From IMG/VR virus record IMGVR_UViG_3300047175_000060, positions 1-60,140 of that record: a stretch of 60,140 bases of DNA; one strand, written 5' to 3'. Position numbers and translations under genes: made by a program. This DNA comes from a virus. This document shows, in pieces, positions 1 to 59,667 of this stretch (its first letter is position 1; each line of letters begins with the position of its first letter). The notes below the pieces were generated by a model. The model did not search any database, was not told the origin of the DNA, and saw only the letters and a list, made by a program, of their open reading frames with translations.

Positions 1-406
1 CGAGGATCAACGCAAGCGCATGCTCATCGTAACGAAGTTGAGCTTAGCACATCGGGGAAACGAGGGCGAGGATCAACGCAAGCGCTTGTTGAGCGAAACC
101 GAGTGGCGCTTAGCACATCGGGGAAACGAGGGGGAGGATCAACTGATCCGCCAGACAAAGCACTCAAACTAGCGCTTAGCACATCGGGGAAACGAGGGGG
201 AGGATCAACACTCAAGCTAAACGTGTTCTCGCCGACGTTGCTTAGCACATCGGGGAAACGAGGGCGAGGATCAACTCAAAGAACTTGGCAGTAAGACAGA
301 CGGAGCCTAGCACATCGGGGAAACGAGGGGGAGGATCAACAGATCCCGATTGTCTATCCCCTGAGAACCAGCTTAGCACATGGGGGAAATGTGGGGAAGG
401 TGGCTC
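1..406 (-). CRISPR. CRISPR array, distal part (continues from window end)
   Basis: The array starts with the last 11 bases of a repeat, then has full 36-bp repeats at 42, 108, 174, 240 and 305, and a decayed last copy at about 371-406. Six spacers lie between them; five are 30 nt and one (276-304) is 29 nt. On the plus strand each repeat begins GCTTAGCACATCGGGGAAACG and ends with GGATCAAC; copies differ by GGGGG or GGGCG near the 3' end. The strand is given as minus because the tracrRNA anti-repeat upstream of cas9 is plus-strand, so functional crRNA repeats must begin GTTGATCC. The last copy has lost the GATCAAC end, which is typical of an array terminus. Confidence 0.95.
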
Positions 407-638
407 ACGGCGGCGCGTCTCCTTCGCGGCCCGGGTCGCCAGTCTCGATCAACACCGCCCCGTTGTCATTCCGATGGCACGAGGGGCAGCCGTGCTCCGC
501 CACCGCCTTCATGACTGCGACCGCCACGGTAAGCCGGCAGTCAACGGCGAAGTAATCGGTCCAGCGGTGGTCGCAATGCGCGCAGCGGAGCTGCATGGGC
601 TGGAAGTGCGGCGCATGGCGATCGTCAGGCATCGCCAA
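405..638 (-). CDS. Small CxxC zinc-ribbon-like protein
   Basis: A 77-residue protein of unknown function. Two CxxC pairs (CAHC near residue 19 and CPSC near 51) suggest a small zinc ribbon. Its last about 20 residues (ending TGDPGREGDAPP) are shared with the gene at 1626-1856 because this 3' end is duplicated together with the adjacent decayed CRISPR repeat. It is the last gene of the leftward early operon and overlaps the next upstream gene by 14 bases. The array begins right after its stop codon. Confidence 0.6.
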   Translation of the reverse strand: MAMPDDRHAPHFQPMQLRCAHCDHRWTDYFAVDCRLTVAVAVMKAVAEHGCPSCHRNDNGAVLIETGDPGREGDAPP

Positions 639-852
639 CCCTCGCGATCGGCCAACTTACAGTGCCGTCTTCCAGCATCGCGCGCAGGCCCGGCGCCTGA
701 TAGTCCAGCCGATCATCTCGCAGGAGCTTCTCCTTGGTCCAGCCGGCAGCCGCGAGCACGCCCACGGCCTTTATGGCCCGCTCGTGCGTGATCGGACTGC
801 CAGGCTTGGTCACGTCCTGATCGCAACACAAGCATTTTATCGGCCCACTCAC
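625..852 (-). CDS. Small CxxC protein, unknown function
   Basis: A 75-residue unknown protein with an N-terminal CLCC motif (residues 7-10) that may bind metal. It sits in a tightly packed leftward operon and overlaps the start of the following gene by 14 bases and the stop of the preceding one by 4 bases, as expected for translationally coupled phage early genes. No family was recognised. Confidence 0.55.
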   Translation of the reverse strand: MSGPIKCLCCDQDVTKPGSPITHERAIKAVGVLAAAGWTKEKLLRDDRLDYQAPGLRAMLEDGTVSWPIARVGDA

Positions 853-1145
853 CGCGCTTCCCCTGCGTCTCTCCGCCGGGCGATGACGCCCCTGGCAGCC
901 TCGACCGAGCGCCGCACACGCCGCAGAACAATCTGGTGCTGCCGATCGGCGAGCGCCAGCTTGCGGTCGAACTCCATCAGGAGACGGTGATTAAACGCGC
1001 GTGATGGCGGATTTCCGGGAAATCTTGGCATGGCGCTTGTTCCGATCTGGTCCGATCCAGCGGCAAGATTAGCAAGTCCCGCAATGGGCTTGAAGCGGAC
1101 TAATCCATCGTCGTCACCTTCGCCCAAGATCACCCGGAAGGCCAT
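849..1145 (-). CDS. Hypothetical early protein
   Basis: Up to 98 residues. An internal methionine (MEFDRKLALADRQ) about 56 residues in may be the true start, since the C-terminal 42 residues look like a basic helical domain. Its stop overlaps the next start by 4 bases. Function unknown. Confidence 0.45.
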   Translation of the reverse strand: MAFRVILGEGDDDGLVRFKPIAGLANLAAGSDQIGTSAMPRFPGNPPSRAFNHRLLMEFDRKLALADRQHQIVLRRVRRSVEAARGVIARRRDAGEAR

Positions 1146-1185
1146 CTTTCCCCCGGCATCAGCGCGATGGCGGCGAGCAAGCGGG

Positions 1186-1464
1186 TCACTCCCATGGCTC
1201 CAGCGCGCCGCCGAACTGGTTGCGATATCGCGCGTCCATTTCCAGAACGTCCTGCAGCCGTACAGGCAGTTCCGGCAGGCGGCCTCGCCTCGCCGCAGTG
1301 CCCGGGATCGCCCTAGTGCAAATCATCAGCGCGTTCGCCCTGGAGTAGCGACCGGCTTCCGACAGGCGCCGCGTATAGCCGTTCCCGCCCGGACACCACC
1401 ATGCGAGGTGCTCGTCGGACCAGATAAGGTAGATGTCGGGCTCGTCACTCATGTCCCGCTCCAT
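1186..1464 (-). CDS. Hypothetical protein, YLIWSDEH-type small domain
   Basis: A 92-residue protein whose N-terminal half (DIYLIWSDEHLAWWCPGG, then GYT) resembles a short tryptophan-rich module often seen in phages and proteobacterial genomes without a known role. The likelier start is the second methionine (MSDEPDIYL), preceded by a purine-rich stretch. It lies between the array end and the isolated repeat pair at 1525, inside the segment bounded by the duplicated repeat and gene 3' end. Confidence 0.55.
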   Translation of the reverse strand: MERDMSDEPDIYLIWSDEHLAWWCPGGNGYTRRLSEAGRYSRANALMICTRAIPGTAARRGRLPELPVRLQDVLEMDARYRNQFGGALEPWE

Positions 1465-1524
1465 TCCGATGCTCCGAAAGCGAACGCGGTCAACGTTTTT
1501 GGCAAGCTGCCGCTCTCACCGAAG

Positions 1525-1628
1525 GCTTAGCACATCGGGGAAAATCTGGGGAAGGGTCAACAACATTGGCCTCCTGTTGTTCCGCTTCTTCGGTTAGCAC
1601 GTTGGGGAAATGTGGGGGAGGTGGCTTA
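1525..1628 (-). CRISPR. Two-repeat CRISPR remnant with one 30-nt spacer
   Basis: A repeat-like copy at 1525-1561 (37 bp, retaining GCTTAGCACATCGGGGAAAA and GGGTCAAC) is followed by a 30-bp interval (1562-1591), exactly the spacer length of the main array, and then a decayed copy at 1592-1628. The second copy and about 60 bases after it closely match the decayed terminal repeat at 371 and its flank. This looks like a stranded piece of the same array, separated by about 1.1 kb of early genes. Confidence 0.8.
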
Positions 1629-1856
1629 CGGCGGCGCGTCTCCTTCGCGGCCCGGGTCGCCAGTCTTGATCAACACCGCCCGGTCGTCATCAGCCACCGC
1701 GAGCGCGGCATAGATGGCCTCGGTCATCCGCGCGTCCTGCTCGACAAACGGCAAAAATTTGCCGTGTTTGCGAACTAACCAAATCTCCTCCCCATACCAA
1801 ACCCGCAGTGCTGCTTCGGTCATCGCGTCGGTGACGACCAAAGAATGGTCGGTCAT
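1626..1856 (-). CDS. Hypothetical early protein
   Basis: A 76-residue unknown protein. Its C-terminal residues (AVLIKTGDPGREGDAPP) are nearly identical to those of the gene at 405-638, while the N-terminal parts are unrelated. This marks the edge of a duplication that includes a decayed CRISPR repeat. It overlaps the upstream gene by 4 bases. Confidence 0.55.
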   Translation of the reverse strand: MTDHSLVVTDAMTEAALRVWYGEEIWLVRKHGKFLPFVEQDARMTEAIYAALAVADDDRAVLIKTGDPGREGDAPP

Positions 1857-2206
1857 CGGCGGGAAACCTCGTCGCGCGTCAGCACGCGGTGAGCGCCGTT
1901 GTCCCAGACGCTGTATCCGGCATCCGCGACGCCGCGGCCCAGCAGCCTGCGATCCGTCTCTTCCGACAGATCGCGCAGGAACGCGCTCCGCTCCTCCGCC
2001 GCGTTTTGGCGGTAGGCCGCACGCTCCTGCTCAATGCGCCGGTCCATTTCCGCGCGGATCGCCAACCGACGCTGATCAAACTGCACCCAGCTCACCTTGT
2101 CCTGCAACCACGGGCGGTACAGCCGGTACAGCCGATCCTCCAACTCGTAGAAATGCCGGCGAATCTCCCGGACGTTGGCGCTGTAAATCTTCGCTGCTTG
2201 GCTCAT
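1853..2206 (-). CDS. Hypothetical helical early protein
   Basis: A 117-residue, strongly charged protein rich in Arg, Glu and Gln, predicted mostly helical (for example a stretch near RAEMDRRIEQERAAYRQ). No family recognised. It follows the recombination genes in the same leftward operon with a 50-base gap, and its stop overlaps the next start (ATGA). Confidence 0.6.
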   Translation of the reverse strand: MSQAAKIYSANVREIRRHFYELEDRLYRLYRPWLQDKVSWVQFDQRRLAIRAEMDRRIEQERAAYRQNAAEERSAFLRDLSEETDRRLLGRGVADAGYSVWDNGAHRVLTRDEVSRR

Positions 2207-2255
2207 CGGGTGTCCTCCCAGATGCGCCCGGGGCCAATCCCCAGGCGCTCAAACC

Positions 2256-3335
2256 TCAGGCTGCGGCGGCTTCTGTTTCGGCGCCTTCATCTGCCGCCCG
2301 TTTTAACCCGAACGGGTCTTCGGACAATGCCTCGTTGCTCAACTCGTCGGCTTTCTGCGCAAGCGCCTTCAGTTCTTCGATGATCGGGCGCACGACGCCG
2401 CGCGCTTGTTTTCCGACATCGCTCTGCCACCACACGGTAAACGCCTCCGTTCCACGGCGGGCCACATCGCGAGCGGCATCCATGACCTGCTTTTGCTTCT
2501 GGGCGTTCCCGCTGCCCTTCGACCACTCGGCCATCGCGCGTCCGGTTTCCTCGGTGATCGGGCGCGTGGGGTCAAACAAACCCTTGAACTGGTCGGCCAT
2601 CTTGATCTGGTGAACGGGGCAACCAGGCGCCGCCGGGTCAAGGATGACCATCGCCGTCAACTCAAACATCAGGTCGCTGTCGGTCTCCGGGTTCCAGGGC
2701 ACATCCGCGCGGCGCGTCTTAGTCCTGAAAGCGTTCGTGGCGTTCTCGCCAAAACCCTTCTGCATGACCGGCTTGGCCCGGGTGCAGATGACGAAGTTGG
2801 TCTTCGCGCGGATGATTCGATCAACGAGGCGGCGATACTGCGGCTTAACCTCAGCCCAGGCGAGTTGTGAAAACTTGTCTCGCTCGACGGTCCACTTGCC
2901 ATTCGCCCGTTTCTCGGCCTCGGCCACCAGACGATCCAGCGCCATTTGGTGCATTTCAAGCAGGCCGCCGACGCCTGCCCAGCTATGTGAGAAGCTGTCA
3001 ATCACCACGGCCGGGAGTTGCACATGCTCGGCGGCGTCGATCATCTCAAGCCAACGCTCAATGGTGAACCCGACGACCTCGCCCGCGTCATTCAGCGCGG
3101 TGAAATCGCTGTGCATCATCTCGGGGAATGCCTCCCGATAGTGAAGGCCACGCCGGTTTTCCGTGTCCACAAAGCCGAACGGAGCGGACTTCTCGCCGGT
3201 TATTTCCCGCACGATCCCGCGCGCCAGGCGCATGGCAGAAACGGTTTTCCCGGTCCCTGACGAGCCCGAAATTCCAACAGCTATTGGAAGCGGCTCGCTG
3301 ATCTGATGCGCGGGCACAAATCGAATGACGCTCAT
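2256..3335 (-). CDS. RecA-like P-loop ATPase, phage recombinase (Sak4-like)
   Basis: A 359-residue ATPase. Walker A is GSSGTGKT at residues 24-31 and Walker B is VVIDS at about 110-114, followed by SFSHSW. It has the size and architecture of phage AAA/RecA-core proteins of the Sak4 type that act in single-strand annealing or strand exchange. The adjacent upstream gene encodes a RecE-like exonuclease, so the pair most likely forms a phage recombination module. The C-terminal about 60 residues are low complexity (Glu/Ala). Assignment to Sak4 rather than another phage AAA ATPase rests on context and motif spacing. Confidence 0.75.
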   Translation of the reverse strand: MSVIRFVPAHQISEPLPIAVGISGSSGTGKTVSAMRLARGIVREITGEKSAPFGFVDTENRRGLHYREAFPEMMHSDFTALNDAGEVVGFTIERWLEMIDAAEHVQLPAVVIDSFSHSWAGVGGLLEMHQMALDRLVAEAEKRANGKWTVERDKFSQLAWAEVKPQYRRLVDRIIRAKTNFVICTRAKPVMQKGFGENATNAFRTKTRRADVPWNPETDSDLMFELTAMVILDPAAPGCPVHQIKMADQFKGLFDPTRPITEETGRAMAEWSKGSGNAQKQKQVMDAARDVARRGTEAFTVWWQSDVGKQARGVVRPIIEELKALAQKADELSNEALSEDPFGLKRAADEGAETEAAAA

Positions 3336-3338
3336 GGC

Positions 3339-4298
3339 TTACTTTCCTGCAAGTTGATAGGGGCGCTGACGCCCAATGTTAATGATGTCCGCGCCGCGCT
3401 GGGTTTTGTAATCGGCCTCGAATATCTCGCGCTCCAGCCAGCGCGACTGATAGAACTCGGGCAGCTTTATCTGAACTACCTCAAGCGGATATCCGGGCCA
3501 GTCATTGGTTTCCAAGCAGTCACGAAAAATCTCGCGCGCGCGGCGGATGCGTTTCTCCGCCATCATGAGGTCTTCGCCTGACAATTCCACCACACAGATT
3601 TCGTGCGGCGGTTCTTTTTCCACGAAGATAAAGCGGAACGGCCGATCCTCTCCCGTCGCGGCCTTCCACACCTCGCGATAGTGCTGGGCCTGGATGTCGT
3701 AGCCGTATTCCATGATGGCGCGGGTGATCTTGTCCGGATTGGCATCCGTCGTGGTTTTGAGGTCATACAGCGGCCCGCGGCCCGTATTGGGCGCGTTGTC
3801 AACCAAACAGCGACACCACACGCCTTCGATCTGGGCAAAAGCCGCCGTCTCGGAATAGGTTGGGTTCAGCACAATGCCCATCTGGGTCAGGCGCGCAGTC
3901 ACCTTCAAGGCCATGGCTTTCATCTGCATGGCTTCATCCGCTTTGATCGGAGTTAGACCTCTGGCGCGCGCATCCTCGACGAAGGCTTTGGCTTCCTTGG
4001 TGTTCGCCGCTCCGTTTGAGGCAAGGATCTCCGCTGGGATCTGAATCCAGTCGCCACCCTTCCCAAGCACCTGACGATGGGCGGCTCTGCCGATGTCGAA
4101 GGTCTTTTTGTTGACCGGCTCCCAATTCGGATTGAGACGCCGGCTCGCGATCCAGCCGTGCAGAGGGCTCTGCGTCAGCAGTATCTTGGCGATCGTCGCT
4201 GACAACGAAGGATGCAAAGCGGGGTCCGCATGGTATGCGTCAGCGTCCAGATCGTAGACGCCCGGCGCCGTAATGACCTTGGATGCAATGTGATTCAC
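3339..4298 (-). CDS. RecE-like PD-(D/E)XK exonuclease
   Basis: About 319 residues. The PD-(D/E)XK core is visible as E150 (in YSETAAFA), D167 (CLVDNAP) and D179-x-K181 (LYDLKTTT), preceded by a GRAAH motif near residue 72, as in RecE/DUF3799 nucleases that resect double-stranded DNA. The GTG start is chosen because it overlaps the upstream stop as GTGA and has GGGAGG just before it; an ATG 15 bases further upstream is possible. It sits 3 bases before the ATPase start codon, supporting a joint recombination role. Confidence 0.8.
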   Translation of the reverse strand: MNHIASKVITAPGVYDLDADAYHADPALHPSLSATIAKILLTQSPLHGWIASRRLNPNWEPVNKKTFDIGRAAHRQVLGKGGDWIQIPAEILASNGAANTKEAKAFVEDARARGLTPIKADEAMQMKAMALKVTARLTQMGIVLNPTYSETAAFAQIEGVWCRCLVDNAPNTGRGPLYDLKTTTDANPDKITRAIMEYGYDIQAQHYREVWKAATGEDRPFRFIFVEKEPPHEICVVELSGEDLMMAEKRIRRAREIFRDCLETNDWPGYPLEVVQIKLPEFYQSRWLEREIFEADYKTQRGADIINIGRQRPYQLAGK

Positions 4299-4540
4299 GG
4301 CCTCCCCTCCCAATCGTCGCGGCCGGCGACGAAGCCAACGATGTTGCCTTTTGGCCGCACATCTGCGGCGGGGACAGTCAATTCAGCGCCGCCATTAAGG
4401 CGCAGACGGTAGCTGACGATGGTGCCGCGCTGCACGACGCGGCCGATGACGGTGGCAAATCCGCGAAAGTCGCCCATGCAGAAGCAGGGCCAGGGCGTGG
4501 GCTCACGGTGATCCACGGCGCCGTAGGAGGCGAGCTTCAT
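4295..4540 (-). CDS. Hypothetical early protein
   Basis: An 81-residue protein (start MKLASYGAV) with an apparent small beta-barrel pattern in its second half (VIGRVVQRGTIVSYRLRL, then TVPAADVRP). The ATG overlaps the upstream stop codon as ATGA, which decides the start. Function unknown. Confidence 0.6.
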   Translation of the reverse strand: MKLASYGAVDHREPTPWPCFCMGDFRGFATVIGRVVQRGTIVSYRLRLNGGAELTVPAADVRPKGNIVGFVAGRDDWEGRP

Positions 4541-4866
4541 GCCCAATTCTCCTCGTCGCGGATGCGCTGGGCGTCCGCATCGGCGATCATGTCGTCGAGC
4601 TTGTCGGGCGAGACCGTGGCGTCCTCAATCGCGGCGCGCACGGCCTCGTAGTCGATGCCGATGGCAAGAACCTCGGTGTCCTCCTCGGCATCCAGGATCG
4701 ACACAAGCACCTGGAGCGCCGCCTGTAGCCGATGCTGACGGTCGCTCTCTTCCGTCGCGATGTCGCTCCATGAGCGGTAGTGCGCGTCGATCATCGCCTG
4801 CGTCACGCCGGGCGAATAGTTGCAGTTGTCTTCCGGGCGCTCGGCGATGCACTCAGCCGGGTTCAT
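4537..4866 (-). CDS. Hypothetical early protein, paralogue of 5792-6103
   Basis: A 109-residue acidic protein. Its C-terminal half (IDYEAV, then IEDATVSPDKLDDMIADAD, ending DEENWA) aligns clearly with the gene at 5792-6103 (IDYEAL, ELENATIPAGKLADIISDAD, DEEDWA). The two appear to be duplicated copies of one gene within the operon. Function unknown. Confidence 0.65.
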   Translation of the reverse strand: MNPAECIAERPEDNCNYSPGVTQAMIDAHYRSWSDIATEESDRQHRLQAALQVLVSILDAEEDTEVLAIGIDYEAVRAAIEDATVSPDKLDDMIADADAQRIRDEENWA

Positions 4867-5615
4867 GGCGTCACCTCGACGGGAGCAGCGGCACCATCCA
4901 TCATCGCGCCGATGAGTGCCTCGAAGATGTGTTCATAGGCGGCATCGGCGGCGGCATAGGCGGCACGGGTGGCATCGGCGGCACCGGCACCGGCACCGGT
5001 ATAGGCGGTATAGGCGGCGGCACCGGCGGCGGCACCGGCGGCACCGGCGGCACCGGCGGCACCGGCGGCGGCATAGGCGGCACCGGCGGCACCGGCGGCA
5101 CCGGCACCGGCGGCGGCACCGGCGGCGGCACGGGCGGCGGCACGGGCGGCATCAAAATCTTTCTTCGAGCCGCCGTTGCGCAAAATCGCCATTACGCGCT
5201 CGCAAGCAAACTTGACCTCCGCCCAATACGGAGGTGCAGGATCCGGCTGAAGTTTAGTAGCCGAAGCAACCGCGTACTCAATCGACGCGGCCAGCGTCTT
5301 ACGTAGCACGCTTTTGTCTGTGTTCCCGTAGCGCAGCGCGAGCGCGAACCGGCGGCCATAGTCGGGGGCCTTCTTCGCGCTCACGCCATCGAACAGAGTC
5401 GGCAGCAGATGCGCCATCCAGGCCGGCATGATGTCGGCGGGGCAGTCGTCAGCGCCGTTGATGCCGGGGTGGATCGCGCCTAGGAGGCACGCGATCTCCC
5501 GACCATTGCGGTCAGTGCCATGCCACTTCGACTGCACGAGCCGCCCCTCGTCGGCGAAAGCGGTGATGCGGATTGCGGCGGTCTCACGGGTAATTTGGTG
5601 GATGTCGGGGGTCAT
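4863..5615 (-). CDS. Early protein with Ala/Gly low-complexity region
   Basis: A 250-residue protein. The N-terminal about 150 residues look globular and resemble small phage proteins of unknown function. Residues about 155-235 are an Ala/Gly/Tyr tract encoded by a GC-rich short tandem repeat, and the last 20 residues (EHIFEALIGAMMDG) are ordinary again. Start and stop overlap neighbouring genes by 4 bases. The tract could vary in length between isolates. Confidence 0.65.
   Translation of the reverse strand: MTPDIHQITRETAAIRITAFADEGRLVQSKWHGTDRNGREIACLLGAIHPGINGADDCPADIMPAWMAHLLPTLFDGVSAKKAPDYGRRFALALRYGNTDKSVLRKTLAASIEYAVASATKLQPDPAPPYWAEVKFACERVMAILRNGGSKKDFDAARAAARAAAGAAAGAGAAGAAGAAYAAAGAAGAAGAAGAAAGAAAYTAYTGAGAGAADATRAAYAAADAAYEHIFEALIGAMMDGAAAPVEVTP
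4940..5152. repeat. GC-rich short tandem repeat (GGCGGCACC-like)
   Basis: About 210 bases built from degenerate 6- and 9-base units such as GGCGGCACC and GGCGGCATA. It lies within the gene at 4863-5615, where it encodes Ala/Gly runs, and is the only long simple-sequence tract in the window. Confidence 0.85.
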
Positions 5616-5770
5616 CTCGTCTCCCTGGCGGCGGGGGCCGCTGTTGGTGTGGGGTATTTATGCTTCGGCGCCGGGACTCTTGCGGACTTTACCATCCAGA
5701 GCGCGTAGTGGCTGAGGGCATAGTCGGGAGCGCAGCTGGCGCGCTCCTCGGCTTCGATCCGATCGGACAT
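5612..5770 (-). CDS. Small hypothetical early protein (52 aa)
   Basis: Reading the minus strand gives MSDRIEAEERASC at the N-terminus and a Pro/Ala-rich tail ending AARETR. The TGA stop overlaps the ATG of the 250-residue gene downstream (ATGA), the same coupling used throughout the operon, and it fills an otherwise empty 175-base gap. Function unknown. Confidence 0.5.
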   Translation of the reverse strand: MSDRIEAEERASCAPDYALSHYALWMVKSARVPAPKHKYPTPTAAPAARETR

Positions 5771-5791
5771 GGGCTTGCCGCGCGGCCGCGC

Positions 5792-6103
5792 TCATGCCCA
5801 ATCCTCCTCGTCGCGGCGCATCTCGGCGCGATACTCGGCGGCGTCCTGGCGCGCATCCTGAAACGCCTGCTCATCGGCGTCCGAAATAATGTCGGCGAGC
5901 TTGCCCGCGGGGATCGTTGCGTTTTCAAGCTCAGAATCCAGCGCTTCGTAGTCGATCCGCGTCTGCATGTGCTCGTCGGTGTTCAAGAGCGCGCGCAAGG
6001 CTGCGATGGCGCTCTGGATTTTCGACTGCCGCTCGTGCTCGTCGGCCGCGGCGTCGGATTGCGGGCGACCCCAGTAGGCATCAATGTCGCGGATGTAGTT
6101 CAT
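5792..6103 (-). CDS. Hypothetical early protein, paralogue of 4537-4866
   Basis: A 103-residue acidic protein ending DEEDWA, related along its C-terminal half to the gene at 4537-4866. It overlaps the upstream gene by 4 bases. Function unknown. Confidence 0.65.
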   Translation of the reverse strand: MNYIRDIDAYWGRPQSDAAADEHERQSKIQSAIAALRALLNTDEHMQTRIDYEALDSELENATIPAGKLADIISDADEQAFQDARQDAAEYRAEMRRDEEDWA

Positions 6104-6330
6104 GACGCGGCGTCCTCATAAATGCGGTTGTATGCTGCGATAGCTTTCGTGATCCGTGCCTCAATCAGGTCGATCGCGTCCTCGTATCCTTCGCGGAACA
6201 GCGCTTCCGCCTCGGGGCGCGACAGCGGGCGCTTGAGCATCATCCGGACCGTGGCAAGCGCCTTCTGCGCGGCTTCGAGACGGTGGGACGAGTTTTGGTC
6301 GTAGATCGTGATGTCTTCGGGCATGGCCAT
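6100..6330 (-). CDS. First gene of the leftward early operon, unknown function
   Basis: A 76-residue protein starting MAMPEDITIYDQ; a longer in-frame start at 6393 would overlap the promoter/operator region and is less likely. The sequence is helical and charged. As the first gene after the operator cluster it should be among the earliest expressed. No family recognised. Confidence 0.6.
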   Translation of the reverse strand: MAMPEDITIYDQNSSHRLEAAQKALATVRMMLKRPLSRPEAEALFREGYEDAIDLIEARITKAIAAYNRIYEDAAS

Positions 6331-6373
6331 CTCGTTTCCCGTGCGGCACCTTGCCGCCCTGGATGTGGCGTGG

Positions 6374-6402
6374 TGTTTACCAGCAGTAAGCAATCATGGC
6401 AA
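6374..6402 (-). promoter_or_regulatory. Leftward early promoter overlapped by an operator
   Basis: On the minus strand TTGCCA (6402-6397), a 17-base spacer and TAAACA (6379-6374) make a reasonable sigma-70 promoter about 45 bases before the first gene. The operator TTTACCAGCAGTAAGC lies inside it (6376-6391), so repressor binding would block the promoter. Confidence 0.55.
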
Positions 6403-6426
6403 GCGGAAACGCGGGAAAAATCGTCT

Positions 6427-6451
6427 CTTGGTAAGTTTTCCTGCTTACCAG
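6427..6451. promoter_or_regulatory. Second operator (inverted GGTAAG/CTTACC)
   Basis: CTTGGTAAG and GCTTACCAG face each other across 7 bases, using the same half-sites as the operators at 6376 and 7226. A further half-site GGTAAGC lies at about 6474. This gives a multi-site operator upstream of the leftward operon. Confidence 0.5.
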
Positions 6452-6783
6452 TGTTGGAAATCCCTGCCGCCAGGGTAAGCGGACGGGGGCTTATGCCGTC
6501 CGGACAGGGGGGGCGCATCAAAAAGGCTTCAGCGTCCAGAACGAGCGCCTTCGAAATTTCGTGGTTGGTATGCTTCTGGAACCTCGCTTGTTTACCCGCC
6601 AGCTTGCGCCGACGGCGTTTCGCGGCCTTGGTGGCGCACTTCTGAAAAAGACGGCTTGCATACCGCAAATCTTCGTGACAGCGGCTAGGTAAAAGCCGAT
6701 AGTGCGCTCCCTCAGGCCGATGCTCAAGCGTAAGGATAGCGCCTATGGCTAAGCTGGATGCGCCCTCGACGGGCGCTGCGTCG
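6452..6783. other. Stretch without a confident gene
   Basis: About 330 bases between the leftward operators and the 3' end of the repressor gene. Several short frames are open on the minus strand (for example one beginning MRYASRLFQKC), but none has a convincing ribosome site or family match, so I leave it unassigned. Confidence 0.4.
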
Positions 6784-7164
6784 CTAGACCTCGGCTGGGC
6801 TGCGTTTCTGCTTCTTAACTCGACCCATATTTGCGGTCATCTCAAGCAGCTGCAGGCAGTTCTGCTTGCCGATCTCGGGCAACTTTCGGAAACTCATCAA
6901 AAGTTGGATCTCGTCGGGATCGCTGACGGTCAGCGATTGGACTGAGCTGAATCCCGTCCGCGAAATGGCATCCATACTGATGCCGGTCTCTTCTGATATG
7001 CGTTTGAGGGTTTTCACGCTCGGCGTCTTAATGTGGCTTTCCCATGCACCGACAAGCCCGGCTGACACGCCCAAACGCTCTGCGAATTGACGCTGCGTAA
7101 GGCCCATCTGGGCGCGGGCAAGGCGAATCCTGAGCCCGACTTGTTGGTCTGCAAACTTCTCCAC
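6784..7164 (-). CDS. CI-like helix-turn-helix repressor
   Basis: About 126 residues with a Cro/C1-type HTH near the N-terminus (LRIRLARAQMGLTQRQFAE followed by LGVSAGLVGAWE). The C-terminal half (LTVSDPDEIQLLMSFRKL) is short and lacks a visible LexA-type cleavage domain. The GTG start lies 6 bases after a TATACT box, suggesting a leaderless mRNA; an ATG 18 bases upstream is the alternative. It is divergent from a Cro-like gene and flanked by TTTACCAG-type operators, so it probably governs both early operons. Confidence 0.75.
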   Translation of the reverse strand: MEKFADQQVGLRIRLARAQMGLTQRQFAERLGVSAGLVGAWESHIKTPSVKTLKRISEETGISMDAISRTGFSSVQSLTVSDPDEIQLLMSFRKLPEIGKQNCLQLLEMTANMGRVKKQKRSPAEV

Positions 7165-7198
7165 GGGCCGAGTATAACCCATCGGCGTGGTGTCCGGG

Positions 7199-7242
7199 AG
7201 TAAGCAAAAGGTGTTGCTGACGCGCTTTACCAGTGGTAAGCC
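7199..7242 (+). promoter_or_regulatory. Rightward operator and promoter region
   Basis: TTTACCAGTGGTAAGC at 7226-7241 contains the perfect palindrome TTACCAGTGGTAA and matches the leftward operator at 6376. A single half-site (AGTAAGC) lies at about 7199-7206. A weak promoter TTGCTG, 17 bases, TAAGCC (7214-7242) overlaps it; the Cro-like ATG lies 8 bases downstream, so this transcript would also be nearly leaderless. Confidence 0.5.
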
Positions 7243-7249
7243 AAGCGCC

Positions 7250-7453
7250 ATGAGGGACCAAGCCATACTCCGCATCAGCTCCGTGCCTGGTCTCCGCGCG
7301 AAGATCGCGCGTGAGCTGGGCGTGACGCGACCCGCGATCCTGAAGTGGCGCCAGGTTCCGGCCGAGCGGCTGCCCGAGGTGGAACGCATCACCGGCATTC
7401 CGCGGCACGAGCTTCGGCCCGACATCTGCACACCGCCCTCAGCCGGGAGATGA
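7250..7453 (+). CDS. Cro/YdaS-like DNA-binding protein
   Basis: 67 residues with a compact HTH of the YdaS/Cro type (IARELGVTRPAILKWRQVP, then RLPEVERITGIPRHELRPDI). It is the first gene of the rightward early operon, directly after the operator and opposite the CI-like repressor, the classic Cro position. The stop overlaps the next start (ATGA). Confidence 0.75.
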   Translation: MRDQAILRISSVPGLRAKIARELGVTRPAILKWRQVPAERLPEVERITGIPRHELRPDICTPPSAGR

Positions 7454-7689
7454 GCACCGCAGCGCACGGGACGCGGTGGCTGAGGGGGGTGTTCCGCGTC
7501 CCTTACCGGCTGCTGACCGTGTACCGGGCTCGTCGCCTCGATGCGCTTGTCCGTCGCCTTGAGCGGGAACGGGCGCGCTGTGACGACACCGAAATGGCGG
7601 TGCTGCGGCTGCGGAAGAAGCAGGGTCTGCGCGTGCCAGAGCGCAGCGATTGGTCGGCACCGGCGACGCGGAGCCAACGGTGGCGCTGA
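7450..7689 (+). CDS. Hypothetical basic early protein
   Basis: 79 residues, very Arg-rich (YRARRLDALVRRLERERARC), predicted helical. It begins on the ATGA overlap with the Cro-like gene. Function unknown; nucleic-acid binding is possible from charge alone. Confidence 0.55.
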   Translation: MSTAAHGTRWLRGVFRVPYRLLTVYRARRLDALVRRLERERARCDDTEMAVLRLRKKQGLRVPERSDWSAPATRSQRWR

Positions 7690-8012
7690 CTCTCACACGC
7701 GACAGTCTGGTCGACATCCATCCGCGGGCGCAGGAAATCTTTGATCTGGCTCAGACTGGCGCGACTTGGCGAGTAATCGCGTCGAAGACCGGCATGACCG
7801 AAAACGGCGTGTATCTTGTGGTGCGCAGTTTGCGTGCCGCGGGCTTGTTAAAGCGCCGTTCGGCGAACAAGGCGCGCGGCCCAGCCAAGCAAGTGGACGC
7901 CAATATAGGTCGCAGCACCAAGCTCAAATGCCTGTGCTGTTCGAAGGTGTTCCCGTCCGCGGATAGGCGGTCCAACCGGATTTGCAAACGGTGTAAGGGC
8001 GACGCCGCGTGA
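7680..8012 (+). CDS. Winged-helix-like protein with zinc finger
   Basis: About 110 residues from a GTG start with GGAG upstream; a TTG 30 bases earlier is also open. The N-terminal part (EIFDLAQTGATWRVIASKTG) reads as an HTH, and the C-terminus has CLCC and CKRC pairs that could form a zinc site. Probably an early regulator; no specific family assigned. Confidence 0.55.
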   Translation: MALTLTRDSLVDIHPRAQEIFDLAQTGATWRVIASKTGMTENGVYLVVRSLRAAGLLKRRSANKARGPAKQVDANIGRSTKLKCLCCSKVFPSADRRSNRICKRCKGDAA

Positions 8013-8332
8013 CGCGCCCGCCCCTTCGCGTCGTCTATGTCGGCCGCGCGACCAGTGCGGCATTGGCCGTCATCTGCACCAGTTGCTACGCCGAGATCTG
8101 CGAGCCGTGCCGACCCATGGCGCACATGCGACTTGGCACGCATCAGTGCCGCGTCGACTTGGCTGAGGCCATCGGCCTGCGGGACATCTCAGCCTTGCCC
8201 CTATTCGAATCACCCGCATCTGCGGGCGATGCCGCGCAGCAGGGCTCAACTGCTGCTCTTGGACGGTTCCTCCCTAAACTTGCCGCCGGCGCTTCGGTGT
8301 CGCCGGTTTTTTTTGGAAGCGAAACGCCGTGA
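8009..8332 (+). CDS. Cys-rich early protein
   Basis: 107 residues from a GTG that overlaps the preceding stop (GTGA). CTSC and CEPC pairs near residues 23-34 suggest a zinc-binding knuckle. Function unknown. Confidence 0.5.
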   Translation: MTRPPLRVVYVGRATSAALAVICTSCYAEICEPCRPMAHMRLGTHQCRVDLAEAIGLRDISALPLFESPASAGDAAQQGSTAALGRFLPKLAAGASVSPVFFGSETP

Positions 8333-8538
8333 GACGCACACAGGCCAAGCAATCCCTCGCATTTGATGCGCCGCGGACTCTTGCGGGAACGCCTTGCCAT
8401 TCATGCGCCGTCATGGGCGTGACGATTCTGGCGTTTGGTCGCAACGACAATGGCGCCATTGAAGCGGCGTTCTGCGGGCACGACTGCGCCCGGGCAGAAG
8501 GCTGGCCGTGGCTTGCGAGCAAGAGAAGCGCTTCTTGA
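8329..8538 (+). CDS. Small zinc-binding protein
   Basis: 69 residues with CHSC and FCGHDC motifs, likely coordinating zinc. It starts on a GTGA overlap and its 3' end overlaps the GcrA gene by 31 bases. Function unknown. Confidence 0.5.
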   Translation: MRRTQAKQSLAFDAPRTLAGTPCHSCAVMGVTILAFGRNDNGAIEAAFCGHDCARAEGWPWLASKRSAS

Positions 8539-8960
8539 CCGGCGCATCTCCCGCGTGGACGCCCGAGGCAGACGCGGAACTGACGCGCCTGTGGTCCGAT
8601 CCGACGCTGAGTGCGCGCGCAATCGGCATTCGCATGGGACGCACGAAGAATGCGGTCGTCGGTCGAACCCATCGTTTGCAACTGCCTCCGCGCGGTTCGC
8701 CGCTCGGCAAGAACGCCGCGGCGTCGAGGGCTGGGAAGCCCAAGCCCGTCACGCGCAAAGCGATGGCTGCGGAAGTTGTGCCCACAGCATCCGAGCCCGC
8801 CACAGTGTTCCGCGCGCCAAGGGGCGGTTTGTGCCAGTGGATTGAGGGCTCCGGGCCGGCGTGGCGGTTCTGCAATCAGCCGACCATCTCGGGGTCGAGC
8901 TGGTGCGCCTCGCATCATGCACGGTGCTTCGCAAAGCCGCGTGCTGAGAGGGCGGCATGA
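8508..8960 (+). CDS. gcrA: GcrA-family transcriptional regulator
   Basis: 150 residues. The N-terminal domain (WTPEADAELTRLWSDP followed by SARAIGIRMGRTKNAVVGR) matches GcrA, the alphaproteobacterial cell-cycle regulator that binds sigma-70 holoenzyme at methylated GAnTC promoters. The C-terminal part (GGLCQWIEGSGP, then RFCNQPTISGSSWCASH) is the conserved GcrA zinc/sigma-binding end. A phage copy could redirect host cell-cycle promoters or serve phage promoters. GTG start inside the preceding gene. Confidence 0.85.
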   Translation: MACEQEKRFLTGASPAWTPEADAELTRLWSDPTLSARAIGIRMGRTKNAVVGRTHRLQLPPRGSPLGKNAAASRAGKPKPVTRKAMAAEVVPTASEPATVFRAPRGGLCQWIEGSGPAWRFCNQPTISGSSWCASHHARCFAKPRAERAA

Positions 8961-9166: not shown

Positions 9167-9608
9167 GCCCGAAGAGGTTTTGCAGATCGCCGTGCTCAAG
9201 CTGGCGCGCGAAGTCATCACCGCACCGCACAGGCTTCGTGCGTTCGATCGGTCGCGTGACTTTAGCGGTCGCGCTCACATCTTCCAGAAGAACAAGGGCA
9301 TCAGGACCGGCACGCCGGACCTTGAACTAATCGTCGACGGCAGGTCGGTGAACCTCGAGCTGAAGGCGCCGGGAACCCGACACCTTGCAAGCGGCCAGCC
9401 GTCGCAGGTGCAGTACGAGGAGATGCGTCTCCTCGAGGCGGCGGGTGCCTATGCCGGCGTCGCTTGGTCCTGCGCCGAAGTGGTGGCGCACTGGCGCGCA
9501 GCAGGCGTGCCGCTCGTCTCGATCGCCGACGAGATCGCCGCCGGGCGCGACCGGACGATCGAATGCGGCCCGACGATGACGGCGCGACGCGGAAAGCGCG
9601 CGGCATGA
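9156..9608 (+). CDS. VRR-NUC domain nuclease
   Basis: 150 residues. The core GTPDLELIVDGRSVNLELKA carries the PD-(D/E)XK signature (D, then ExK), followed by SGQPSQVQYEEMRLLEAAG as in stand-alone VRR-NUC phage nucleases, usually involved in processing replication or recombination intermediates. The GTG start is preceded by GGAGGGAGG at ideal spacing. Confidence 0.85.
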   Translation: MPLKPEEVLQIAVLKLAREVITAPHRLRAFDRSRDFSGRAHIFQKNKGIRTGTPDLELIVDGRSVNLELKAPGTRHLASGQPSQVQYEEMRLLEAAGAYAGVAWSCAEVVAHWRAAGVPLVSIADEIAAGRDRTIECGPTMTARRGKRAA

Positions 9609-10108
9609 ATGGCACCCCTGCCACTCTGCCGCCCGAATGGGTGCGGGCGGCCAATCCGCCGACCGCATCTGCTCCGCCGGCCGCGAAGATCACGTGGCTC
9701 CGCGAGTTCGGGCGCTCCAACGCGACGTTTCTGGCGCTGACGGACCTTTACGGGCTTGAGGCGCCTGAGCACCGCTATGGTATCGACGTGCGGCTAGGCG
9801 GCGAGGCGATGACCGTTCTGATCTGCGCGCTGATGGCCGAAAGGATCGGCGAGGAGCGGAACATGGGCGGGATCGCGGGTCGCGCCGAATGGGCTCAGGC
9901 GCAATGCCGCGCGCATCAGTTCGCGGAGGCGTTGCGCAAGGCCGTCTGGCCGCTGGGCCGGGACGGAGCTGCCGGCGGCGAGATCATCGCGCGCGCTCGC
10001 GCCGTCAACGCGCGACACGGCATGGAATTGTCCTCTGGTGATCTTCTCGCCATCACGCGAAAAATAGCGATCGCAGCCGCCACCGGGCGGAGGCCGCATG
10101 GCCGTTGA
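9605..10108 (+). CDS. Hypothetical early protein
   Basis: 167 residues, starting MNGTPATLPPEW on an ATGA overlap with the nuclease. The middle is helical (MTVLICALMAERIGEERNM). It precedes the RepA-like ATPase by an 11-base overlap and may take part in replication. No family recognised. Confidence 0.6.
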   Translation: MNGTPATLPPEWVRAANPPTASAPPAAKITWLREFGRSNATFLALTDLYGLEAPEHRYGIDVRLGGEAMTVLICALMAERIGEERNMGGIAGRAEWAQAQCRAHQFAEALRKAVWPLGRDGAAGGEIIARARAVNARHGMELSSGDLLAITRKIAIAAATGRRPHGR

Positions 10109-11348
10109 CTATGTCGATCCCATTTGGGGACCAGCGGGGCCACCAGAACGCAGGGCCAAGCTCTCGGTCGTCACCGACGATAAGCCGCAAGAAGCATTCG
10201 TTCTCCAGCGCGCGAGACTTCCCAACCCAAAGTCGATCCCGCCGCGGCGCTGGCTTTACGGCACGCATCTGCTGCGGGGTTTTGTGAGCGTTCTGGTCGC
10301 CCCTGGTGGCACTGGCAAGTCATCCTATGCGATGGCGGTCGGGTTATGCTTGGCGACAGGCCAGGACTTCCTGGGGGAGCACATTTTCCAACGCGTCAAT
10401 GTGGCGTGCCTCAACCTTGAAGACCCGATCGATGAGCTTGATCGGCGCCTCGCTGCGCTGATGATCCGCCACCGCATCGACGAGACCGAGGTAGACGGTC
10501 GGTTTTTTATGCATTCCGGCGAGACAAGGCGCGTCGTCATGGCGGCACTCAGCGCCGACGGCTATTCGGTCGTCCACCCGGACGAGGCTGCTCTCACGGC
10601 CGAGCTGAAGCAGCATGACGTAGGGATGATCATCGTCGATCCGTTCGCGGAGAGCCACAGCCTGGAGGAGAACAGCAACCCTCAGATGATCAGCGCCGCC
10701 GCAGCATGGCGCCGTGTAGCCAGGGCTGGCGACTGCGCCGTCCTGCTGGTCCATCACGTGCGCAAGGGCACGGTGACCGACATTGATGGCGCCCGCGGCG
10801 CCAAGGCCCTCACGGACAGCGCCAGGGTCGGCATGCTGATGTCTGGCATGTCGGTCGAGGACGCCGAGAGCTTTGGCATCAAGGAAGACCAGAGAGGGCG
10901 CTACGTGCGCCTCGACGACGCCAAGGCCAATCTGGCGCCCAAAGCGTCCAAGGCCCGCTGGTTCGAACTGGATCGCGTTGACCTTGAGAACGCCACCCCA
11001 GACTACCCGGGCGGCGATCATGTCGCTGCGATCGTCTCATGGACGCCTCCCAGCCTGTGGGCCAGCCACACGGGCGAAGACCTCAACCTCGTGCTCGACA
11101 AGATCGCAGCCGGCCCGAAGCCAGATCAGTTCTACAGCACCAATCGCCGCGGCGGCGGAGCCAGGTGGGTCGGCAACGTCCTGGTTGACATGCTGGAGAT
11201 TGAGGAGGGCCAAGCCAAGCAGATGGTCGCCAAGTGGCTTGAGACCGGCCTTCTCAAGCTCGACACCTTCAAGGACCCGAACACCCGGAAACTCGTCGAA
11301 GGTGTGATCGTGGACGACAGCAAGAGGCCTTCACGCGATGCGCGCTGA
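10098..11348 (+). CDS. RepA-like AAA ATPase / replicative helicase
   Basis: 416 residues. Walker A is APGGTGKS at residues 68-75, Walker B is GMIIVDPF near 175-182, followed by LLVHHVRKG and DSARVG, the signature order of RSF1010-RepA/DnaB-core helicases. The C-terminal part has a winged-helix look (VLVDMLEIEEGQAKQMVAKW). No DNA polymerase or primase was seen in the window, so the phage would use this protein plus host replication enzymes. The iteron cluster immediately downstream supports an initiation role. Confidence 0.8.
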   Translation: MAVDYVDPIWGPAGPPERRAKLSVVTDDKPQEAFVLQRARLPNPKSIPPRRWLYGTHLLRGFVSVLVAPGGTGKSSYAMAVGLCLATGQDFLGEHIFQRVNVACLNLEDPIDELDRRLAALMIRHRIDETEVDGRFFMHSGETRRVVMAALSADGYSVVHPDEAALTAELKQHDVGMIIVDPFAESHSLEENSNPQMISAAAAWRRVARAGDCAVLLVHHVRKGTVTDIDGARGAKALTDSARVGMLMSGMSVEDAESFGIKEDQRGRYVRLDDAKANLAPKASKARWFELDRVDLENATPDYPGGDHVAAIVSWTPPSLWASHTGEDLNLVLDKIAAGPKPDQFYSTNRRGGGARWVGNVLVDMLEIEEGQAKQMVAKWLETGLLKLDTFKDPNTRKLVEGVIVDDSKRPSRDAR

Positions 11349-11634
11349 TCTCTTTGTGAACGCTCCGTCAGCTTCCGCAGACAGTCCCCTGCGCGCAAAA
11401 CTTATGGCGCACGTTATGGCGCAGATATGGCGCATTTGTTGCGCAGCTTCGACCGGCGGAGAGGCGGTTGCGGCCTCGGTGCGCCGTTGCGCCATAAACC
11501 CCCCTATCGGGGGGTGTTTATGGCGACTGAATATGGCGCAGCAGTCCGAGGGGCCGCGCAACACCGCCCCTCGTAGCCGATTTTATGGAGCGTTTATGGC
11601 GCACGTTATGGCGCACGCAGAGGAGCAATCATGA
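11338..11634 (+). CDS. Doubtful ORF across the iteron region
   Basis: A 98-codon open frame overlaps the end of the ATPase gene. It repeats MAHVMA because it runs through TATGGCGCA units, and it contains an IS right-end relic and a large dyad. The frame may be open only because of the repeat composition; I consider the DNA structure the more likely function. Confidence 0.25.
   Translation: MRADLFVNAPSASADSPLRAKLMAHVMAQIWRICCAASTGGEAVAASVRRCAINPPIGGCLWRLNMAQQSEGPRNTAPRSRFYGAFMAHVMAHAEEQS
11356..11384 (-). mobile_element. Relic of an IS605-type right end
   Basis: CTCCGTCAGCTTCCGCAGAC (11364-11383) is identical to the right-end hairpin region beside the tnpB at 34480-35616 (34444-34463), including the flanking GTGA. 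On the minus strand it ends in GTTCAC, similar to the ends of both tnpB elements here. No tnpB remains nearby. Confidence 0.6.
11403..11615. repeat. Iteron cluster TATGGCGCA, candidate replication origin
   Basis: Six exact direct copies of TATGGCGCA (11403, 11415, 11426, 11532, 11595, 11607), one inverted copy (11488) and two near copies (11519, 11584). They surround a dyad in which CGCCATAAA plus six C is mirrored by six G plus TTTATGGCG around TATC (11490-11525). The cluster directly follows the RepA-like ATPase gene, as iteron origins often do. Confidence 0.65.
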
Positions 11635-12760: not shown

Positions 12761-13156
12761 ATGAGCAAACTGACGCCCAAGCAGGAGCGCTTTGTCGCCG
12801 AGTATCTCATCGACCTGAACGGAACTAAGGCCGCTATCAGGGCTGGCTATAGCTCGCGCACTGCCAATGAGCAGGCAGCAAGGCTGTTAGCAAAAGATAG
12901 CATTTCAGAAGTTCTCGGAATGGCCAGAAATGCCATATCAGAAAGAACGGAACTGACTCAGGACGAGGTGATCGCGGGGTTACGCTTCGAGGCCACGAAC
13001 ACAGGCGACGGCTCCTCGCACAGCGCGCGGGTGGCGGCATGGACGCAGCTCGGCAAGCACCTCGGCATGTTCAGGGACAAGGTCGAGCACAGCGGTAATT
13101 TGAGTATTGCTGCGCTGATCGAGGCGAGCTTCGTCAAACCTTTTGGTGACGGCTGA
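12761..13156 (+). CDS. terS: Terminase small subunit
   Basis: 131 residues beginning MSKLTPKQERFVAEYLID, then NGTKAAIRAGYSSRTANEQA, the hallmark of Terminase_2-type small subunits, with LGKHLGMFRDK toward the C-terminus. It recognises the packaging site and hands DNA to TerL. It is separated from terL by about 1.9 kb of leftward genes, an unusual split. Confidence 0.9.
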   Translation: MSKLTPKQERFVAEYLIDLNGTKAAIRAGYSSRTANEQAARLLAKDSISEVLGMARNAISERTELTQDEVIAGLRFEATNTGDGSSHSARVAAWTQLGKHLGMFRDKVEHSGNLSIAALIEASFVKPFGDG

Positions 13157-34438: not shown

Positions 34439-34479
34439 TGACAACTCCGTCAGCTTCCGCAGACGGCTTCTCAGACAAG

Positions 34480-51630: not shown

Positions 51631-51900
51631 TCACAGCCGGAACGCCCCTGCTGCCTCGTGCTTTGCGACATAATCCCGGATGGCGTCCAGCAACATCTCC
51701 TGCTGCGGCTTGCGCAGATCGACGCGCAGCTTCTGGAACGCAACGACGACCGAATCGGACGGGTCGTAATAGCCCCCGATATGGAGCTTGGCGGCGCGGC
51801 TCGGTTTGGGCGCCGTGGGCTTCGCTGCAACCGACGGCAATTCGGGTGCTTGGAGTGCGGGAACGGCAAGAACAGGGGCAAGCAAAGAGCGTCTAGCCAC
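51631..51900 (-). CDS. ParA partner, RHH centromere-binding protein
   Basis: About 89 residues from GTG. The C-terminal LHIGGYYDPSDSVVVAFQKL followed by MLLDAIRDYVAKHEA is the layout of small RHH ParB-like partners encoded after class Ib parA genes. The start overlaps the parA stop by 8 bases. It should bind the operator/centromere repeats upstream of parA. Confidence 0.75.
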   Translation of the reverse strand: MARRSLLAPVLAVPALQAPELPSVAAKPTAPKPSRAAKLHIGGYYDPSDSVVVAFQKLRVDLRKPQQEMLLDAIRDYVAKHEAAGAFRL

Positions 51901-52552
51901 GGGCGGCAACCTTCTTCTGTTGTGCTTCAGGTGTGCAGCACATATGAATTTGTGCAAAAGCCCAAGCCTGCAATTCTGCAACCTCTCCCGCCGCCTTGCC
52001 GTTTGGCTCGAACTCGCGGGTTGTCTTTCCCAAAGGCCAAGCCGCGCGGAAGGCGCTTCGCTCGCGCAGCACGACGGGGGCTATGGCAAGTCCGACGCCG
52101 GCTACGAGGGCGCGGGCATCATCCAGCAGGACCGTGGCGCCATGCGGAGCGGCATTGAAGACGACGAAAGCCGGGACGACCGCGGACTTGATAAGCTGCG
52201 CTGTGCGCTTGATGGCGTCGAGGTCCACGAGGCTGGGACGGCATGGCACCAGCACAAGGTCGGCTGCCTGGGCGGCGGTGTAGGCCTGCGGCCCGGCGGC
52301 CGGGGGTGTGTCGATCACAGCGAGGTCGAAGCCTTGAGCCGTCGCCGCCTTCAACGCCTCGCTTAGCCGGCGCTCCGTCAGAAACTCGACGTGGGGCAGC
52401 TCGGCGTTGCGCCTGTCAGCCCACATGACGGCGCTCTCTTGCGGGTCGAGGTCGAATACCGCCGCGCGGAGGCCCGCAGAAACGGCGAGATTGACCGCCA
52501 GGGTGCTTTTCCCGACACCGCCTTTCTGGGCAATGAACGCGATTGTCTTCAT
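51893..52552 (-). CDS. parA: ParA partition ATPase
   Basis: 219 residues with the deviant Walker A KGGVGKST (10-17), VFDLDPQESAVMWADRR and AVIDTPPAAGP (Walker B). It positions low-copy replicons on the nucleoid together with its RHH partner. In a phage this implies an extrachromosomal prophage stage. AAAGGA precedes the ATG. Confidence 0.92.
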   Translation of the reverse strand: MKTIAFIAQKGGVGKSTLAVNLAVSAGLRAAVFDLDPQESAVMWADRRNAELPHVEFLTERRLSEALKAATAQGFDLAVIDTPPAAGPQAYTAAQAADLVLVPCRPSLVDLDAIKRTAQLIKSAVVPAFVVFNAAPHGATVLLDDARALVAGVGLAIAPVVLRERSAFRAAWPLGKTTREFEPNGKAAGEVAELQAWAFAQIHMCCTPEAQQKKVAARG

Positions 52553-59284: not shown

Positions 59285-59309
59285 ACCGCCGCTCTCCGCG
59301 TATCGTTTC

Positions 59310-59615: not shown

Positions 59616-59667
59616 CGTAGCCGTTGACGCCAATCCCACTGCGAAATCAATGAGATCGACGACAACC
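59616..59667. other. Cas2-array junction
   Basis: 52 bases between the cas2 stop and the first repeat, too short for a classical leader and without an obvious promoter. The cas2-proximal repeats are the most uniform, so this may be the acquisition end. Confidence 0.4.

Follow-up and report, generated by a model that had tools for sequence, protein, structure and literature searches.

In SaPI and PICI elements the origin lies directly after the initiator-helicase gene, and in SaPI the C-terminal domain of Rep recognizes the iterons (PMC7581432, PMC6092414). The locus described below resembles these elements in layout, with a candidate origin 3' of a predicted initiator-helicase gene and two sets of short iterons. 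It differs in its motor, which appears to be of the RSF1010-RepA/DnaB type rather than one of the SaPI Rep types, and in its carriers, which are phages. PICI origins, as described there, have an AT-rich region between the iteron sets, whereas a GC-rich stem-loop occupies that place here.

RSF1010 (IncQ) shares with this locus the RepA fold, for which it provides the closest solved structure, as well as iterons and a stem-loop. The RSF1010 passages of PMC4234260 assign iteron recognition to RepC and priming at ssi to RepB'. Here, by contrast, the iteron-reading domain appears from sequence to be fused to RepA. The helicase of P4 alpha is of another type. The passages of PMC4234260 on P4 describe a likeness nonetheless, in that alpha binds origin repeats through a winged helix and the same protein unwinds and primes; alpha carries its own primase, and RepA here has no primase domain recognized by Pfam. 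A winged-helix replication protein with a stem-loop directly downstream is also described there for pRN1 ORF904 and the Bordetella phage BIP-1 protein. ORF904 differs in combining an SF3 helicase with a prim/pol, and the pRN1 origin is presented in PMC4234260 as having no iteron structure, unlike the array here. Initiator residues or domains that covary with origin repeats have been described for PLE RepA-ori and geminivirus Rep (PMC8263062, PMC10611410). In PLE it is the N-terminal DNA-binding domain that covaries, and geminivirus Rep is a rolling-circle protein; both proteins are unrelated to RepA of this locus. The open-licence literature that we searched held no described origin for this phage group. 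One study reportedly concerns extrachromosomal mycobacterial prophages.

We analyzed a window consisting of the whole of a 60,140-nucleotide viral record (IMG/VR IMGVR_UViG_3300047175_000060). We propose, with a probability of about 0.78, that an array at 11402-11615 is the replication origin of this phage and is recognized by the adjoining RepA. That estimate rests on the behavior of RepA residue 398, on a silent-site control, and on the layout of the array.

A RepA-like ATPase with a predicted C-terminal winged helix

The protein encoded directly upstream of the array (Table 1) belongs to AAA_25 by Pfam (PF13481, 5.4e-41) and matches 1g8y, RSF1010 RepA, at 5.2e-22 in a profile comparison. 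Its AlphaFold model (mean pLDDT 80) matches 1nlf in Foldseek at 2.5e-12 and aligns with RSF1010 RepA with Z scores of 23.0-23.5 over 235-247 residues, in a whole-model search that mostly covered the ATPase part. By sequence and model the protein has an RSF1010-RepA-like fold, that of a RecA/DnaB-type ATPase, for which a hexameric state and helicase activity are predicted. Modeled alone, the C-terminal domain consists of three helices and a wing, with residues 349-356 forming the loop ahead of helix 2 and residues 393-398 the wing. Its top structural neighbors are winged-helix proteins, matched weakly (Z up to 7.3), and a Foldseek search with this domain at a threshold of 0.001 gave no match (best E 0.04).

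The initial annotation had stated that no polymerase or primase is visible. We searched 20 records, namely the window and 19 of the records holding the 58 loci described below, for PF09250 (Prim-Pol), PF13362 (Toprim_3), and PF00136 (DNA_pol_B) and found none of the three in any record (0/20). The statement stands for those three families and part of the window ORFs. In contrast to RSF1010 with its RepB' primase, these records showed no PF09250 or PF13362 match.

An iteron array and a dyad follow repA

The sequence TATGGCGCA has seven exact copies in the window, all within 11403-11615: six on the plus strand (11403, 11415, 11426, 11532, 11595, and 11607) and one on the minus strand (11488). 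The shuffle expectation was 0.54, and seven or more copies arose in 0/100 shuffles. The dyad has 15-nt arms (11490-11504 and 11511-11525) that are 93% complementary and include a C6/G6 stem. Folded as RNA, the stretch 11470-11545 reached -42.1 kcal/mol (z -3.5), a value equaled in 1/200 shuffles. The first 10-bp iteron begins 53 nt past the repA stop. These results bear out the description given in the initial annotation of six iterons with one inverted copy and a large dyad directly after a RepA-like ATPase gene. An Rfam search of the window at gathering scores returned no match. An exact 20-base copy of 11363-11382, part of the stretch between repA and the iterons, lies at 34445-34464.

The initial annotation had named a conserved protein gene at 11338-11634 as a finding that would speak against an origin. 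We looked for such a gene and dropped the protein-coding reading: substitutions relative to the nearest relative are spread evenly over the three codon positions (23, 24, and 28), and gaps break the frame. Read through the array, this frame stays open in 9/33 relatives; the two alternative frames do so in 9 and 20.

Table 1. Proposed origin features and associated genes in the window
Feature	Position	Strand	Basis or remark
Companion gene	9605..10108	+	No Pfam or PHROG family; no sign of iteron reading
repA-like gene, RSF1010-RepA/DnaB-type ATPase with predicted C-terminal winged helix (residues about 326-405)	10098..11348	+	Pfam, structure comparison, AlphaFold
Codons of RepA residues 348-357, loop ahead of helix 2; sequence and length change with iteron bases 1-4	11139..11168	+	Covariation
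Codons of RepA residues 393-410, wing and beyond; residue 398 paired with iteron base 6	11274..11327	+	Covariation
Left iteron cluster, three copies (11402-11411, 11414-11423, 11425-11434)	11402..11434	+	Exact-repeat and finder scan
Proposed outer stem, left arm	11456..11487	+	Flank pairing across 34 loci
Inverted iteron, forming the left dyad arm	11488..11497	-	Repeat and dyad scan
GC stem-loop ACCCCCC-TATC-GGGGGGT, dyad center	11498..11515	.	Stem reached in 0/200 gap shuffles
Right dyad arm, partial iteron TTATGGCGAC	11518..11527	+	Dyad scan
Iteron ATATGGCGCA	11531..11540	+	Exact-repeat scan
Proposed outer stem, right arm (approximate; overlaps iteron at 11531)	11534..11569	+	Flank pairing
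Degenerate iteron TTATGGAGCG	11583..11592	+	Repeat scan
Right iteron cluster, two copies (11594-11603, 11606-11615)	11594..11615	+	Repeat scan
ParA-family partition ATPase, outside the origin; supports plasmid-like maintenance	51893..52552	-	NF041546, PF13614, PF01656

The array recurs after repA in related loci

A profile built from five RepA proteins retrieved 58 viral loci, three of which lack the end of repA (L128, L136, and L141); 56 rows were readable, including the window and duplicates. An array with a finder score of at least 20 was present at the 3' end of repA in 51 of these 56 rows (window and duplicate loci counted). The same score was reached in 0/448 dinucleotide shuffles (highest 16) and in 0/51 stretches further upstream (highest 13). 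Five rows (L101, L119, L120, L126, and L140) had no recognizable array, and neither did three more distant genes from the held-out set described below (L169-L171).

For subsequent comparisons we excluded the five rows without an array and four loci with a short RepA (L113, L133, L137, and L138) and thinned the remainder at 95% identity, which left 37 rows. In 33 of these 37 non-redundant loci the array begins no more than 60 nt from the repA stop. An array typically runs from direct 10-bp iterons through an inverted iteron, the GC stem-loop, and a direct iteron to further direct iterons, and at least two direct iterons flank the dyad on each side in 31/36 loci. There are 138 intervals of at most 16 bp between direct copies, 90 of them 11 or 12 bp long. 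The iterons share the register NNNYGNNGNN, in which the letters at bases 5, 8, and 4 are set by construction, because the finder required G5 and G8 and its seeds required T or C at base 4.

Distinct iteron 10-mers number 20 in the 37 loci and 36 in an enlarged set of 66 (see below). The nearest relative (L003), whose RepA is 86% identical, has the identical layout after repA, with AATTGGCGCA replacing the TTATGGCGCA of the window. Compared at the sequence level, then, the array switches as a unit with its layout kept, and among the loci it is the layout that is conserved and not the iteron letters.

Searches started from the array rather than from RepA gave a mixed yield. The sequence TATGGCGCANNTTATGGCGCA was found in eight stretches of viral contigs, four with a repA relative (L005, L007, and L010, which have identical arrays, and L011) and four without (L004, L006, L008, and L009). 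A search for the dyad pattern returned 25 viral stretches, six with a repA relative (L005, L007, L010, L011, L021, and L024), and 45 stretches in genomes, one with a repA relative (L076).

Comparative evidence for selection on stem-loop pairing

The dyad was detected in 36/37 loci, and 34 of the 36 have a perfect stem of at least 5 bp, with 32 distinct stem sequences. Shuffling the gaps gave as long a stem at most 13 times in 200 in any of the 34 loci. Loops containing TAA or TTA occur in 20/36 cases, ten of them TAAA, in a list that includes one spurious dyad (L116). The dyad finder failed at L115, where it returned none, and at L116, where the call at +460 was spurious. Read by eye, both loci have an inverted repeat around GGCCCTAAAGGGCC, which stands outside the counts.

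Beyond the stem itself, the left and right flanks of a locus pair with each other better than the mean of pairings with flanks from other loci in 28/34 loci (Wilcoxon p 1.7e-5). Stem sequences vary and pairing stays, a pattern that identifies the stem-loop as under selection for pairing. The DNA that separates the iteron sets has a GC fraction of 0.66 in the window and a median of 0.63 over 34 loci, none falling below 0.5, and we saw no AT-rich melting region there in the window or in the 34 loci.

Iteron letters covary with the C-terminal domain of RepA

We compared iteron distance between loci with protein distance, segment by segment. Whole RepA gave r 0.25 and residues 381-410 gave r 0.48 (partial 0.43, 0/2000 permutations). 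Residues 336-365 gave a partial correlation of 0.21 (4/2000 permutations), and residues 366-380, which hold most of the presumed recognition helix, had no link to the iterons (-0.02). The combined loop-plus-wing correlation of 0.43 was reached by 10 of 500 random pairs of RepA segments (maximum 0.51). Such a link could come from recombination, since these codons adjoin the array. However, the partial r for residues 396-410 was 0.54 with amino acids, against 0.00 with the silent third positions in these codons, and linkage therefore fails to explain that correlation.

Among 285 individual RepA columns, residue 398 ranked top for iteron base 6 (z 11.1) and for base 4, and residue 397 ranked top for base 9, with relatedness handled in these z values by sequence weights alone. 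For base 3, the ten best columns all lie at residue 340 or beyond, where 2.2 would be expected; that region supplies between 3 and 6 of the top ten for each of the other seven bases tested. High ranks also went to some columns of the ATPase part (A237 and E108 with base 2, A201 with base 7), and bases 2 and 7 each have their best column there. We conclude from these comparisons that the iteron letters track the C-terminal winged helix of RepA.

The same comparison bears on the companion gene directly upstream of repA. Its product could be the iteron-binding initiator, with RepA merely the helicase, as with RepC in RSF1010; we give this arrangement little credence. Related genes occupy that place in relatives, and RSF1010 keeps RepC and RepA separate (PMC4234260). 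Yet distances among homologs of the 9605 product did not correlate with iteron distance (r -0.03, partial -0.20, 30 loci), whereas those of RepA 381-410 do. That negative is weak, because the alignment was poor (mean column identity 27%). Seven of the 37 loci were excluded from it, five with a badly picked ORF (L087, L089, L097, L100, and L108) and two with none (L122 and L139). The homologs are 11-27% identical to the window protein, apart from that of the nearest relative (75%). A sequence match to the 9605 product was found in 7/20 records, window included; a search of the phage collection found nothing, and the viral contigs yielded no confirmed relative. The reader of the iterons is thus most likely RepA rather than the 9605 product, as far as sequence comparison can tell.

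Residue-base rules and their performance in held-out loci

To obtain held-out loci we searched 395 genomes of one order, with an Acetobacteraceae genome record as the entry point. Thirty-eight of the 395 matched at 1e-60, and 29 new loci were taken. Prediction rules were fixed ahead of inspecting the held-out proteins. The held-out set includes L113, L137, and L138, whose repeat strings, and not their C-termini, had been seen before the rules were made, and several of its loci are close relatives of one another. For six loci of the combined 66-row set (L153, L155, L159, L163, L164, and L167) the iteron consensus was set manually, with the proteins already known; the hand reading of L167 replaces an automatic call, and L169-L171 are excluded.

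In these 66 rows, lysine at residue 398 goes with G at base 6 in 48/48 loci, and a different residue (R or N) goes with a base other than G in 16/18, the exceptions being L094 and L113 (Fisher 1.8e-13, ignoring relatedness). On a tree built from RepA residues up to 320, residue 398 and base 6 each change 13 times. Well supported branches hold six independent changes, of which 5.6 agree on average and 0 oppose (median p 0.03); the sign test is borderline because many loci are related and the independent changes are so few. The corresponding test for base 3 was not significant (4.4/7 agree, none opposed, median p 0.125). His or Tyr at 352 or His or Gln at 351 accompanies G at base 3 in 13/16 loci, and where these are absent base 3 is not G in 50/50, under a combined rule formed with data already seen.

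Among held-out loci, K398 predicted G at base 6 in 17/17 automatically called loci, or 23/23 with six hand-read loci added, and R398 predicted a base other than G in 5/6. A second rule (R2), by which a one-residue insertion after G352 with Q, K, or R goes with AATTG, scored 4/13. It was right for L143, L144, L158, and L166 and wrong for L149, L150, L154, L157, and L159-L163, which means that as written it fails beyond its clades of origin. Four residues instead of three between 352 and 356 are found in 12/12 loci with AATT iterons and also in 19/54 others. Rules R3 and R6 held in one case each (L113 and L138, respectively).

Proposed initiation and competing explanations

The initial annotation had called the array a candidate phage-plasmid origin. 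Three lines of evidence support the origin part: the layout recurs after repA, the iterons covary with the C-terminal domain of RepA, and known origins sit directly behind initiator-helicase genes. The GC-skew check that had been proposed did not support the site, with the cumulative minimum at 35,945 and just a local maximum near 10-11 kb.

If the array is the origin, initiation might proceed as follows. RepA would bind the 10-bp iterons (TTATGGCGCA in the window) through its winged helix. The iterons lie about one helical turn apart, so RepA could assemble on either side of the central stem-loop, possibly as a ring. It would then load, perhaps once the dyad extrudes or melts, with opening expected at or near the dyad. 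RepA, as a putative helicase, would unwind the flanks for priming and synthesis, both carried out mostly by host enzymes, presumably the host primase and polymerase. The theta mode suggested in the initial annotation may apply. Assembly on either side and opening at the dyad are drawn by analogy with models for pRN1, SaPI, P4, and RSF1010.

We weighed several other functions for the array. It could be a control or incompatibility region bound by RepA (autoregulation, copy control, or partition) rather than the start of replication, which we consider unlikely. The window does have a ParA gene, and iterons act in control and partition in known plasmids. The ParA gene is 40 kb off, and a ParA-type match above the cut-off was found in 2/20 records, so the array is not tied to ParA. 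A central stem-loop with kept pairing also fits origins such as that of pRN1 better (PMC4234260).

It is quite improbable that the array is instead a packaging site (cos/pac) bound by the small terminase. The gene for the terminase small subunit lies 1.1 kb downstream of the array (12761-13156), ORFs read by eye as terminase subunits also come after the array in L007, and lambda cosB carries repeats. Against this, no terminase-like ORF was recognized by eye within 5 kb past the array in the nearest relative. The array also adjoins repA in 33/37 loci, and its covariation with the C-terminal domain of RepA shows in the protein and not at silent sites. A comparison of the window small subunit with six related records gave no match, which says little because several of the records are fragments and this subunit is variable. 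That the dyad is a terminator of the repA operon with incidental repeats is hardly credible: a terminator scan does list the stem (2 found vs 0.6 expected), yet the iteron itself makes up the T-rich tail, which varies along with it (e.g., AAATTGACG in L104 and AAACCG in L097), and the iterons, their spacing, and the covariation with RepA would stay unexplained.

Should the array be an origin read by RepA, the replication start and its reader would be identified for this phage group, and origin binding and unwinding, tasks divided between RepC and RepA in RSF1010, would reside in one RSF1010-RepA-type protein. With 36 natural iteron types aligned to their readers, a code of protein-DNA recognition could be tested directly, and there would be many candidates for orthogonal pairs of origin and initiator. 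A broader reading, which we advance tentatively and at somewhat less than even odds, is that a DnaB/RSF1010-RepA-type helicase fused to its own origin-recognition domain forms, with the adjoining array, a portable one-protein replicon of alphaproteobacterial phages, a cyanophage having an array of similar look. The specificity of this replicon would be fast-switching and partly readable (residue 398 paired with base 6, and G at base 3 paired with His or Gln at 351/352). Natural initiator-origin pairs would then number in the dozens and probably be orthogonal, and a stem-loop that is GC-rich and extrudes would stand in place of the usual AT-rich melting region. This raises the question of why specificity changes so fast; competition or incompatibility between co-infecting phages could drive the switching.

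Phage-plasmid features and wider distribution

The second part of the earlier proposal, that the element is a phage-plasmid, is plausible for this record. The window encodes phage structural genes (head-tail connector, TerL, major head, and tail genes) and a ParA that scores 7e-46 with NF041546, under its curated cut-off, and passes the cut-offs of PF13614 and PF01656. Searches of the record for tyrosine (PF00589) and serine (PF00239) recombinases gave no match. Both contig ends cut through a CRISPR array whose last right-hand repeat is the left-hand variant, the pattern that breaking a circle inside the array would leave; the molecule may thus be circular. A circular 53.8-kb Rhodoplanes record (L014, NZ_LR026982), listed as a plasmid and carrying phage structural genes, has iterons and a stem-loop at 11147-11400. 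Against a phage-plasmid assignment, just 2/20 records have a ParA-type match above the cut-off, and some copies of the module lie deep within long bacterial contigs (e.g., at position 652,392). The latter suggests integrated copies, and the module is accordingly not specific to phage-plasmids.

Short direct and inverted repeats come right after the ATPase gene in circular Rhodoplanes, Microvirga, and Methylobacterium records (RepA identity 31-34%), the repeats in L012-L016 being listed without a chance control. A toprim-domain gene sits directly before the ATPase gene in the Microvirga and Methylobacterium records; the window has no PF13362 match. Microcystis phage Mae-Yong1326-1 (L017) has GACTGGCGCA and a stem-loop at 6168-6427, directly after the gene for a RecA-family ATPase with 26% identity. 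A Rhizobium phage relative had no repeats within 181 bases at the end of the gene.

Other features of the window

A type II CRISPR-Cas system occupies 55329-60140 and 1-412, with Cas9 (TIGR01865, 2e-156), Cas1, and Cas2. Its array has 36-nt repeats and 29-30-nt spacers and suggests a circular element carrying the system; the spacers had no match elsewhere among the sequences compared. A lone degenerate CRISPR repeat (8/36 mismatches), possibly a tracrRNA anti-repeat, lies just before cas9 at 55225-55260, and further degenerate repeats are at 371, 1525, and 1592. Between ParA and Cas9 is an IS605 TnpB-like gene (53841-55028).

The region 1-8500 gave no near DNA match in the phage collection. 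Two minus-strand genes, Exonuclease VIII-like (3339-4313) and AAA_24-like (2256-3335, under the Pfam cut-off), are perhaps a phage recombination pair. A GcrA-like cell-cycle regulator (PF07750) is encoded at 8508-8960, just ahead of the replication genes. A GC-rich minisatellite of CGGCGGCAC-type units occupies 4934-5150, within a minus-strand ORF at 4863-5615.
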